A stretch of 44,005 bases of DNA from Pirellulales bacterium. Lineage in GTDB: Bacteria > Planctomycetota > Planctomycetia > Pirellulales > JACPPG01. Position numbers and translations under genes: made by a program. Where the stretch lies: positions 1 through 44,005 of the forward strand of contig DASXEJ010000136.1 of assembly GCA_036490175.1 (NCBI GenBank), in the 5' to 3' direction. The notes beneath the pieces were generated by a model. That model did no database searches, was not told the DNA's origin, and saw only the letters and a list, made by a program, of their open reading frames with translations. Below, in pieces: positions 12,663 to 21,417 of the stretch (its first letter is position 1; each line of letters starts with the position of its first letter).

Positions 12663-13886
12663 ATGGCCGGCACGACCCAACCGCTTCCCGCGACGCAGCA
12701 GCCCGTCCGCCATTGGCTCTCTTATAGCCTGCGTTCGCTCTTCGGTTTGATGACCGTATTTTGCATCCCCCTGGTTTGGATCACTTACGAACGGGCGCAA
12801 TCCCGGCACGAGCTGCAAGTTGTTGACCAAATAAAAGCGAGCGACCAGTCGACCGTGGTTAGGTTCGTGGGCCGATTCGATCGTCCGGATTTTGACCTGT
12901 CTGGAAAGCTAATAGCGCCGCCCTGGTGGCGTCGCGTTCTGTCAGTCTTGTGTGGACCGAGAGTCGAAGCGGTGCTTGCCTATCAGCATCGATCGTTGGA
13001 CGACATCTCGACGCTTGCCGCCCTAAAAAGGCTCGAAATGCTCAGCCTGGAGGAAACGCGAGTGACCGACCTCTCGCCGCTCAGCAGCCTCACTGGCCTG
13101 GTTGCAGTTTTCCTTAACGATACCCAAGTAAGCGACATTTCACCGATTGCAGGTTTCAAAGACCTGGAGAGACTCGACCTCGCACGTACAGGCGTCAGCG
13201 ATCTTCGGCCGCTCGCGAGACTGCCGCGACTATCCACGCTAGTTCTCGATGGTTGTCCGGTTCGCGATCTTGCCCCGCTCAGCGAAGCGAAGCAATTGGA
13301 CATGGTCTGCTTTGAGGACACCCCGGTTAGCGATCTGTCTCCGCTCGCCGGTCTAATGAATCTGCAAGCCCTCTACTTCAACGGCAGTCAGGTCGTCGAC
13401 ATTTCACCGCTGGCCGGGCTTTCGAAGCTGGGTAACGTTGGCCTTGCGCGTACGCCGGTGAGCGATTTTGCGCCGCTGGGCGCACTCACTGCGCTCGAGA
13501 TCCTGAACGTCAGCGGCACGCAAATCAGCGACCTCGCGCCTCTGGCCAGACTCACGAGCCTGCGGTATCTCCACTTTGACGATACCAAAGTCCGCGATCT
13601 CACTCCGCTAGCCGGATTCAAAAACCTTGGAACCGTGTCCTTCAGCGGCACGCCGGTTAGCGCCATCTGGCCGCTCGCCGGTCTCACTGGCTTGCAAGAA
13701 CTCTGGCTCGACCGCACGGCGGTTACCGACCTCACGCCGCTTTTGGGACTCAAGAGTCTCACCGAACTTCATATCCAAGGAATAGTGGTCAGCAAAGAAC
13801 AGGTCGAGCTCCTCCAAAAAACATTGCCAAACTGCAAGATCGCATCCGATCTGATTTCGCGGCCCATACCCATCGCCGGGCCGTAG
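12663..13886 (+). CDS. Membrane-anchored leucine-rich-repeat protein
   Basis: A 407-residue protein. One hydrophobic segment near the N-terminus (about residues 25-42, LRSLFGLMTVFCIPLVWITY) should anchor it in the cytoplasmic membrane. Residues about 115-378 are twelve consecutive leucine-rich repeats of exactly 22 residues, following the pattern xSPLAGLxxLxxLxLxxTxVSD. This is the internalin-like SDS22 subclass. The repeats probably fold into a curved binding surface; the partner is unknown. An N-terminal helix starting with LRSLFGLM is common in planctomycete LRR proteins. I see no lipobox or sorting signal. There is no good ribosome-binding site at the ATG, but no better start either. It is divergent from tsaB. 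Confidence 0.88.
   Translation: MAGTTQPLPATQQPVRHWLSYSLRSLFGLMTVFCIPLVWITYERAQSRHELQVVDQIKASDQSTVVRFVGRFDRPDFDLSGKLIAPPWWRRVLSVLCGPRVEAVLAYQHRSLDDISTLAALKRLEMLSLEETRVTDLSPLSSLTGLVAVFLNDTQVSDISPIAGFKDLERLDLARTGVSDLRPLARLPRLSTLVLDGCPVRDLAPLSEAKQLDMVCFEDTPVSDLSPLAGLMNLQALYFNGSQVVDISPLAGLSKLGNVGLARTPVSDFAPLGALTALEILNVSGTQISDLAPLARLTSLRYLHFDDTKVRDLTPLAGFKNLGTVSFSGTPVSAIWPLAGLTGLQELWLDRTAVTDLTPLLGLKSLTELHIQGIVVSKEQVELLQKTLPNCKIASDLISRPIPIAGP
13005..13796 (+). repeat. Twelve tandem 66-bp LRR-coding units
   Basis: Twelve units of exactly 66 bases encode the LRR array with no insertion or deletion in register. Units begin with codons for L/I-x-P-L, for example at 13071 and 13731. Sequences between units differ considerably, so these are old protein-level repeats and not a recent DNA expansion. 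Confidence 0.85.
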
Positions 13887-14952: not shown

Positions 14953-15065
14953 CGACGCGCACGATTGTGCCGAGCGGCACCCACCCTATTGGCCGCAAAT
15001 GGCAGCGACTGCCGAATTGCACATAACGATCGCCAAGCTCTGACTGGCGATAAAGGATGCGGGGA

Positions 15066-17399
15066 ATGGATAAGCGATTTACGACGTTTTTGTTGGTGGC
15101 TTTTGTCGTCTTGATGGTGAACATGCAGCTGATGCGCTGGTGGCAGCAGAAGGCTGCACCCGCCGCACAGCAGGCCGCCCAGGAAAACGCCAAGCTGGCC
15201 GACAAGCCCGCGGCTGGTGCCGCTGACAAGCAGCCCGAACTCGCCGCAGTTGCGGCTGACGAGCCAGCCGACGAGAAGGCGGCTGCAGACGTCGGCGCCG
15301 AGCCCAAAAAGCCGGCTGTTCTGGCTCCTCCCCCGCAGTCCCCCGAACAACGATTAACCCTCGGTTCGGCTGATCCAAAGAGTGGTTTCCGCGAGCTCGT
15401 GACCTTTACTAGCGCCGGAGCGGCGGTTCAACGCGTCGAGCTCAACAGTCCGCAGTACCTCGATCAGGAAGACCGTAGCGGCTACTTGGGGCAACTTGAC
15501 CTGGGTGTAGTGCCTAATCACGAGCAAGGCGCGCTGGTGCGCGTGGTGGGCCCTGGAACGCCCGCGGACGAGGCCGGACTCAAAGTCGACGACGTGATCA
15601 CCGAGCTCAACGGGAATGCGGTCCTCGGGCCGATCGAGTTTCAAGAAGCACTCGAACAGACCGAACCGGGCGATGAGTTCACGCTCACGATCAATCGACA
15701 CACTCCCGACGGAGCCGTCGACGGCCGGAAACTAAACGGCACGCTGCGCCGCCGGCCGATGGAAGTCATTCGGCCCGAAGGGATCGACGCCTTGTCGTTC
15801 CTGTTAACGATCGACAGCCTCGACGGCGAACGCATCGCCAAGGATGCCGAAGAGTTACCCGGCATCATGATGCGCACGTCCCCTTGGCAAGTGCTGCCGC
15901 GCGTCGATCCGGACGAGATCGCGTTTCAGTATGATCTGGCCGAGGCCGGGCTGTCGGTGATCAAAAAGTTTCGCCTGGGCAAAGTCGATCCGGCCGAGGC
16001 CGATAATCCTTCGGCCAAGGCATATCACCTCGACTTCGCCATCGAGGTGCGCAACACCGGCGACAGAGAGCATAAGCTGGCCTGGCGCCTCGATGGTCCC
16101 ACCGGCTTGCCGCTAGAAGGCGCCTGGTATGCGATGAAGATCAGTCCGAACATGCGTGGCGGCGCCGGCATGCGCGACGTCGTGGTCGGGTTTCTGGCTA
16201 ATCGGCGCGAGAAGAATGGGTTGGTCAGCGCCTACACGATCGCCGAGGGTACGGACCTCCCCACCTGGCAAGACGATTGGTTGAAGTATATCGGTGTCGA
16301 CGCCCAGTATTTTGCCGTAGCCCTGCTGCCGGCGAGCGCCGAAGAGACGGACAATGGCGCTGCCGATGAGACAAATTACGGCCGCGCCGTGCCGATTCGC
16401 GTAGGCGATGTGCCGGCCGATCGTAGCAAGCTCAACCGCACGAACGTATCGTTCCGCCTGATAAGCAAAGTGGAAACCGTCGCTCCGCAAGGCAAGCCGT
16501 TTGCACAATCATTCAAGATCTTCTCAGGGCCGAAGAAGCCGGCGCTGCTTGCGCATTACGGCCTCGGCAACCTGGTCTACTACGGCTGGTTCGGTTGGGT
16601 AGCGCAACCGATGCTCGAAGTGCTGCACTTTTTCTACAGGATCATTCCCAACTACGGCATCGCGATCATCATGCTCACCGTGCTGGTGCGCTCGATGATG
16701 TTCCCGCTCAGCCGGCGGCAAGCGCTCAATGCCCAGAAGATGCAGGAGTTGCAACCCGAGATCAAGCGGATTCAGGAGAAATACAAAGGCAACATGGAAG
16801 CCCGCAGCAAGGCGCAGCAGGAGTTGTTTCGCAAGCACAAATACAACCCTCTGGCCGGCTGTCTACCTGTTTTTCTGCAATTGCCGATTTTCCTCGGTCT
16901 CTATCGTTCGTTGTCAGTTGACGTCGAACTGCGCGGTGCGCCGCTGATCAGCGAATCGATCCGCTGGTGCTCGAACCTGGCCGCGCCTGACATGCTATGG
17001 AATTGGCACAACTATTTGCCGGCGGTATTGGCCGGGCCGAGTGGTTGGCTGGGCCCCTATTTCAATCTATTGCCGTGCATCACGATCGGCCTGTTCATCT
17101 GGCAACAGAAGATGTTCATGCCCCCGGCGGCCGACGAGCAAGCCGCCATGCAGCAAAAAATGATGCAATACATGATGATCTTTATGGGCGTGATGTTCTT
17201 TAAAGTGGCTAGCGGTTTGTGTCTGTACTTTATCGCCTCCAGCTTGTGGGGCATTACCGAGCGCAAGTTACTCCCCAAGTCCACGGCACCGGCCGGCGGC
17301 GCGTCCCCAACCACCGCGGCGCGGGGAGCGGTGGCACGGACCGGGGCAAATGGCAACGGTTCGTCAGAAACCAAGAAAAAGAATCGCGGCCGCGCTTAG
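15066..17399 (+). CDS. yidC: Membrane protein insertase YidC with a PDZ-like insert
   Basis: A 777-residue YidC/Oxa1/Alb3 insertase that places proteins into the inner membrane, alone or with SecYEG. The N-terminal helix (TFLLVAFVVLMV) is followed by an Ala/Lys/Pro-rich linker, a large periplasmic region, and the conserved insertase core from about residue 498. The core contains LTVLVRSMMFP with the hydrophilic-groove arginine (Arg542), NPLAGCLPVFLQLPIF and the final helices. It ends in a basic tail, as expected for ribosome contact. Residues about 143-228 (LGVVPNHEQGALVRVV, GTPADEAGLKVDDVI) read as a PDZ domain embedded in the periplasmic region; E. coli YidC (548 residues) has none. An ATG at 15057 is also in frame, but the AAGGA just before it is too close; it is well placed for the ATG at 15066. 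rnpA and rpmH, the common neighbours of yidC in other bacteria, are absent. Confidence 0.95.
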   Translation: MDKRFTTFLLVAFVVLMVNMQLMRWWQQKAAPAAQQAAQENAKLADKPAAGAADKQPELAAVAADEPADEKAAADVGAEPKKPAVLAPPPQSPEQRLTLGSADPKSGFRELVTFTSAGAAVQRVELNSPQYLDQEDRSGYLGQLDLGVVPNHEQGALVRVVGPGTPADEAGLKVDDVITELNGNAVLGPIEFQEALEQTEPGDEFTLTINRHTPDGAVDGRKLNGTLRRRPMEVIRPEGIDALSFLLTIDSLDGERIAKDAEELPGIMMRTSPWQVLPRVDPDEIAFQYDLAEAGLSVIKKFRLGKVDPAEADNPSAKAYHLDFAIEVRNTGDREHKLAWRLDGPTGLPLEGAWYAMKISPNMRGGAGMRDVVVGFLANRREKNGLVSAYTIAEGTDLPTWQDDWLKYIGVDAQYFAVALLPASAEETDNGAADETNYGRAVPIRVGDVPADRSKLNRTNVSFRLISKVETVAPQGKPFAQSFKIFSGPKKPALLAHYGLGNLVYYGWFGWVAQPMLEVLHFFYRIIPNYGIAIIMLTVLVRSMMFPLSRRQALNAQKMQELQPEIKRIQEKYKGNMEARSKAQQELFRKHKYNPLAGCLPVFLQLPIFLGLYRSLSVDVELRGAPLISESIRWCSNLAAPDMLWNWHNYLPAVLAGPSGWLGPYFNLLPCITIGLFIWQQKMFMPPAADEQAAMQQKMMQYMMIFMGVMFFKVASGLCLYFIASSLWGITERKLLPKSTAPAGGASPTTAARGAVARTGANGNGSSETKKKNRGRA

Positions 17400-17431: not shown

Positions 17432-21022
<3,591 letters not shown>

Positions 21023-21417
21023 CGTGTCCTCGAGCCTGTGAAGAATCCGTCCGCGCAAAAAAATCGACTGCAAGGAAACTTATCGCGACGGGAAAACGCT
21101 TGCAGCCGACAGGAGGTCCTCTGGGCCACGCCCGCAAATACGTCGGGATGTGGCCAAGCTAGCAACCGTTTGGATTCTAACAAACGCGCGTGCAGCGCGA
21201 CAGAGTGAGGCCGAGGGCTCGAGCACTTTCACATGACGACAAGACAATCGCAGTGGTGAGCCTGACGCGCGCAATAGCGCACGTAATGTACGCGTCTCGC
21301 GGTGGTTTGCACGGTCTGGTCTGCCAGCCGTAGCATCCAGAAAAGGCTCATTCCGGCGATTGGAAACGAATGGCGTGCGTGGCCTATCGTCCGTCGGAAT
21401 GTAGCTGCGACGAAGGA
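21023..21417. other. Intergenic region between the FHA gene and dnaE
   Basis: These 395 bases should contain the dnaE promoter on the minus strand. I could not pick a credible -35/-10 pair, and I see no gene, hairpin terminator or RNA gene in it. Confidence 0.5.

Follow-up and report, generated by a model that had tools for sequence, protein, structure and literature searches.

The window analysed here, a stretch of 44,005 nucleotides from a Pirellulales bacterium (assembly GCA_036490175.1, contig DASXEJ010000136.1), carries a yidC gene on the forward strand at positions 15,066–17,399. The gene encodes, without internal stops, a protein of 777 amino acids. We placed its start at 15,066 (MDKRF), the same as in the relatives, with the motif AAGGA about 10 bases upstream; a second in-frame ATG lies at 15,057. 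This is the genome's only copy. A profile search of the 7.6 Mb genome returned a single PF02096 protein, which rules out a second yidC paralogue serving as the ordinary copy. Pfam recognized 60KD_IMP (PF02096) at residues 530–733 (4.5e-46, 157 bits against a cut-off of 35) and YidC_periplas (PF14849) at residues 407–518 (2.1e-08, 34.9 bits against a cut-off of 24), and the NCBIfam model TIGR03592, which covers the core, scored 175.9 against a cut-off of 84.3.

To describe the layout of the protein, we used an AlphaFold2 (AF2) model of the full-length YidC built from 78 sequences, together with profiles and alignments of relatives. The N-terminal membrane anchor (residues 2–26, positions 15,069–15,143) is a helix in the model and is followed by an Ala/Pro-rich low-complexity linker (residues 27–92, 15,144–15,341), which has the lowest conservation in the protein and low model confidence across most of residues 31–80. 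The first part of the periplasmic P1 domain (residues 93–136, 15,342–15,473) contains strands at residues 96–100, 110–115, and 120–126, and the match to E. coli P1 begins at residue 92. Profiles and the predicted fold then reveal an inserted HtrA-type PDZ domain at residues 137–230 (15,474–15,755), near the beginning of which conservation among 124 relatives marks the carboxylate-binding loop GYLG (residues 139–142, 15,480–15,491). P1 resumes with the strand RRPMEVIRPE and its second part extends over residues 231–506 (15,756–16,583). The conserved insertase core (residues 507–740, 16,584–17,285) matches the B. halodurans YidC structure 3wo6 (Z 19.5) and holds the hydrophilic-groove arginine, Arg542 (16,689–16,691), assigned by aligning the relatives. 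The presence of this residue, which had been read from the sequence alone, was confirmed, and it is kept in 123 of the 124 relatives, the remaining one having a lysine.

YidC is essential and broadly conserved, the role of P1 is still unclear, and bacterial PDZ domains usually reside on proteases. The identification of a PDZ domain in this protein is supported by several profiles. In Pfam, PDZ_6 matched residues 158–211 (7.8e-12, 45.2 bits against a cut-off of 27) and PDZ_2 matched residues 148–212 (5.4e-11, 43.1 bits, also against 27), with the PDZ family PF00595 slightly below its threshold (23.0 against 23.2). NCBIfam models of DegP/HtrA matched residues 151–213, and a profile of the YidC PDZ matched DegQ at 1.6e-25. 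The predicted structure agreed: the AF2 model reached a pLDDT of 87 overall and of 93–98 across residues 91–240, and when the PDZ was modelled alone (pLDDT 92), its best matches were HtrA, DegS, DegQ, and DegP, at Z 13–15. The original prediction had placed a PDZ at about residues 143–228 and had suggested structure prediction as a check. A PDZ fold was indeed predicted, with Z scores of about 15 to HtrA-family PDZs in structural comparisons of the model: 15.3 over 87 residues at 1.1 Å rmsd for the HtrA-type PDZ 2z9i, and 14.8 over 91 residues at 1.6 Å for DegS with bound YQF peptide. The domain itself thus stood, but its extent proved larger, about residues 137–230, because the GYLG loop and the flanking strands are part of it.

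The origin of this PDZ is HtrA-like, the domain being judged too short for a reliable tree. Pfam found no trypsin-family match in the protein, which is therefore not an HtrA protease. A fusion with an HtrA gene or a mis-assembly was ruled out both by this lack of a trypsin domain and by the same architecture in many independently assembled genomes. The architecture is also present in the cultured Bythopirellula polymerisocia.

We then located the insertion point. The PDZ had been expected to sit in the periplasm between the anchor and the insertase core; it is periplasmic, but it lies inside P1, not merely ahead of it or in its stead. Structural comparison splits the model into three units, P1, PDZ, and insertase core, so P1 is complete but interrupted by the PDZ. 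The P1 unit aligned with E. coli P1 (3bs6) over 246 of 260 residues (Z 20.9), with a model range of 92–506 that spans the PDZ, and replacement of P1 by the PDZ was thereby ruled out. When we removed the PDZ in silico, the flanks aligned cleanly with YidCs that have no PDZ. In the window's protein, the domain is found between the strand ELNSPQYLDQE and the strand with which P1 resumes, and it occupies the place of a short turn at about residues 87–94 of E. coli YidC (within AYPKELNSTQPFQLLE). The model thus shows the PDZ as an insertion into an early surface loop of the periplasmic P1. Separately, a second PDZ in a different P1 loop was observed in three YidCs of one Pirellulales family, f10 (L129, L130, and L231). 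In L130 it covers residues ~259–336, after the strand DPxSFLLTL, and in L129 it is degenerate.

Next, we examined how this architecture is distributed. The order of the relatives was assigned as Pirellulales by inference, the named ones being mostly labelled Pirellulales or Planctomycetaceae. In a profile search of the kind that the original prediction had suggested, PDZ_2 matched 58 of 59 Pirellulales YidCs, the exception (L127) beginning at a contig end, against none of 81 from elsewhere in the phylum (0/43 within the class but outside the order, 0/38 from other classes). A profile of the YidC PDZ matched 136 of 137 Pirellulales entries, which were pooled from two partly overlapping alignments and include some of the sequences used to build it; 135 of these scored 57–124 bits and one, truncated at its 5′ end, scored 29. 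The truncated L127 gave no match to this profile, and the best score among the 81 other planctomycete YidCs was 3 bits. By these profile scores, the separation of Pirellulales from other planctomycete YidCs is far beyond chance.

A profile of the full PDZ-containing YidC extended the survey to 396 Pirellulales genomes, of which 387 matched and nine did not. Rechecking 30 low-scoring or split Pirellulales cases revealed the PDZ segment in all of them, within the gene itself or, where a gene was cut, within its other piece. Across 244 genomes of the phylum, all those among the listed matches that fall outside Pirellulales start at model position 246 or later, past the PDZ. In a tree of the core region, from which the PDZ columns were left out, the PDZ-containing YidCs formed one clade (SH-aLRT 99), requiring one state change. 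Sporadic acquisition or frequent loss was ruled out by this single clade and by the apparent absences among the 30 rechecked cases, which were contig cuts. On this evidence, the PDZ was gained a single time, by the Pirellulales ancestor, with no loss seen in the sampled genomes, and it marks the lineage relative to the other planctomycetes sampled. Outside Planctomycetota, no PDZ was seen in YidC in a thin sample composed of solved YidC structures, E. coli, and, from a plasmid collection, 54 records of several phyla with YidC matches; among the 30 of these matches that were listed, none reaches the PDZ. In one YidC from another order of the class, we observed a match to EF-hand_5 (5.3e-6).

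The surroundings of yidC are ordinary, and a special neighbourhood was ruled out. With gene names assigned by reading the neighbours' sequences, a metallophosphoesterase gene lies upstream in 71 of 81 loci and mnmE lies downstream in 50, the usual order being tsaB, metallophosphoesterase, yidC, mnmE. In the window, the place after yidC that mnmE occupies in most relatives is taken by dnaE (DNA polymerase III alpha; 17,432–21,073, reverse strand). The window also encodes, at 12,663–13,886 on the forward strand, a 407-residue leucine-rich repeat protein (LxxLxxLxxLxLxxTxVxDLxPL) with an N-terminal membrane segment.

We also inspected the other PDZ proteins of this genome, which is rich in them, with 29 PDZ_2 matches (L253–L281). 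The proteins that could be assigned are trypsin-like HtrA, S41, M50, and M28 proteases, PDZ-only proteins, YidC, and Lgt, the prolipoprotein diacylglyceryl transferase. Since the assignable matches other than YidC are proteases, PDZ-only proteins, and Lgt, the PDZs of the genome mostly belong to envelope proteostasis. One protein (L257) combines three PDZ domains but lacks a protease domain.

The Lgt (L280:730–2037, corresponding to G000:C275:4323–5630, forward strand) matches PF01790 at 1.3e-51 and carries its PDZ within the periplasmic part, between FP.GSPP.E.QV and SLPVHPTQLYSA. Among its relatives (L282–L311 and L342–L358), a PDZ family match was found in at least 23 of 30 Pirellulales Lgts scanned and in 10 of 10 chosen Lgts from families f23–f26 of the class. 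The inserted domain occurs in several planctomycete orders; it was absent from the examined Lgts of families f21 and f22 and from two f8 members. Our literature search found no description of a PDZ in Lgt. Given its presence in both YidC and Lgt, PDZ insertion into inner-membrane biogenesis enzymes therefore occurred more than once in planctomycetes.

Conservation within the YidC PDZ is uneven. In 124 PDZ-containing YidCs, the GYLG loop is strongly kept (G139 94%, Y140 93%, L141 80%, and G142 100%), as is the motif GTPA...AG...D (96–99% at G164-T-P-A167 and 95–100% at A170, G171, and D176); the peptide-pocket helix at residues 189–197 is variable. Averaged over pairs of sequences, identity is 39% in the PDZ, 36% in the larger part of P1, and 62% in the core; the PDZ thus evolves much as P1 does. 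Across Pirellulales, identity to the window's PDZ ranges from 31 to 64%.

The protein is best explained as the housekeeping YidC of a Pirellulales bacterium, one of whose P1 loops received an HtrA-type PDZ in the ancestor of the order. Membrane insertion should proceed as in E. coli, because P1 and the insertase core are intact. As the carboxylate-binding loop and the fold are kept, the PDZ has most likely retained its capacity to bind peptides, whether C-terminal or unfolded and hydrophobic, on the periplasmic side next to P1. There, it would hold clients, or a quality-control partner such as an HtrA-type protease, a chaperone, or a translocon subunit, at the insertase. Taken broadly, a periplasmic peptide-docking or chaperone module serving clients or quality control is the role toward which the sequences and the model lead us to lean. 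In some members, the specificity of the groove may have shifted or the groove may no longer be used, given the variable pocket helix and a PDZ conservation that only equals that of P1.

A possible but less probable reading is that the PDZ binds one fixed protein and not clients, such as SecD, a protease of the HtrA or S41 family, or some other PDZ-linked enzyme of the envelope, and thereby assembles a translocon or quality-control complex specific to Pirellulales. The universal retention of the domain in this order would be consistent with such a partner, and the PDZ inserted in the Lgt of the same genome could mean that a docking partner is shared. In E. coli, P1 is the SecF-binding part of YidC; its contacts with SecDF and probably with nascent chains, and its chaperone-like cleft (PMC7618853), also fit the broader docking role that we favour. 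The variable pocket helix, in contrast, fits a single ligand less well, and the neighbours of yidC, mnmE and the metallophosphoesterase gene, are ordinary ones.

It seems improbable that the PDZ has ceased to bind peptide and acts as a structural spacer, affecting only how large or stable P1 is or what it contacts, as a neutral or near-neutral insertion fixed in the ancestor. According to PMC13174344, E. coli YidC remains functional when most of P1 is removed, so an insert in this largely dispensable domain might persist without mattering to the cell. The second PDZ accepted by one Pirellulales family in another P1 loop, and the P1-like conservation of the PDZ, point the same way. Yet the carboxylate loop and the core motifs are near-invariant across the order despite the divergence of the PDZ as a whole, and no loss was found in the sampled genomes; a kept function is therefore favoured. 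That the independent PDZs of YidC and Lgt form a planctomycete network, reading C-terminal peptides of one common class and coupling insertion, lipoprotein making, and PDZ proteases, appears very unlikely.

A natural fusion of P1 with a peptide-binding type of module, spanning an entire order, is a clue to the cellular surroundings of P1, and the PDZ ligand, once identified, would tell what Pirellulales bring to the insertase. The additional PDZ in Lgt suggests that planctomycetes tied PDZ recognition to several envelope-building steps, beyond proteases.

An expansion of PDZ domains in planctomycetes was reported in a survey of 7,852 microbial PDZ proteins, whose 12 families do not include YidC and whose text mentions neither YidC nor an insertase (PMC6411480). 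We found no description of a PDZ in YidC in a literature search that left subscription journals mostly aside, and the architecture may figure in domain databases as an automatic entry. The two outcomes that would have spoken against the original prediction, lack of a PDZ fold and an insert already widespread and described in other phyla, were not encountered in what was sampled. The PDZ-containing YidC is thus apparently an undescribed, fixed addition to core cell machinery.

Compared with E. coli YidC (6al2 and 3wvf; P1 3bs6 and 3blc), the Pirellulales protein has the same anchor, P1 beta-supersandwich, five-helix core, and groove arginine, is likewise single-copy, and in most loci shares the yidC–mnmE order, whereas the E. 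coli protein has its short turn in place of the PDZ. Other Planctomycetia YidCs (e.g., L094–L105) have the same P1, the same core, and the same P1 flanks around the insertion point, but all 43 are without the PDZ. The domain itself is closest, in both sequence and structure, to PDZ1 of the periplasmic proteases HtrA, DegP, DegQ, and DegS, with which it shares the fold and the type of carboxylate loop; HtrA-family proteases carry a trypsin domain, whereas the Pirellulales PDZ rides on an insertase that has none. Cyanobacterial YidC offers a parallel, since its P1 has undergone lineage-specific changes that include two helix-loop insertions (PMC13174344). There too, an addition to P1 is fixed in a lineage, but it consists of helix-loops, while that of Pirellulales is a folded domain of a peptide-binding type.
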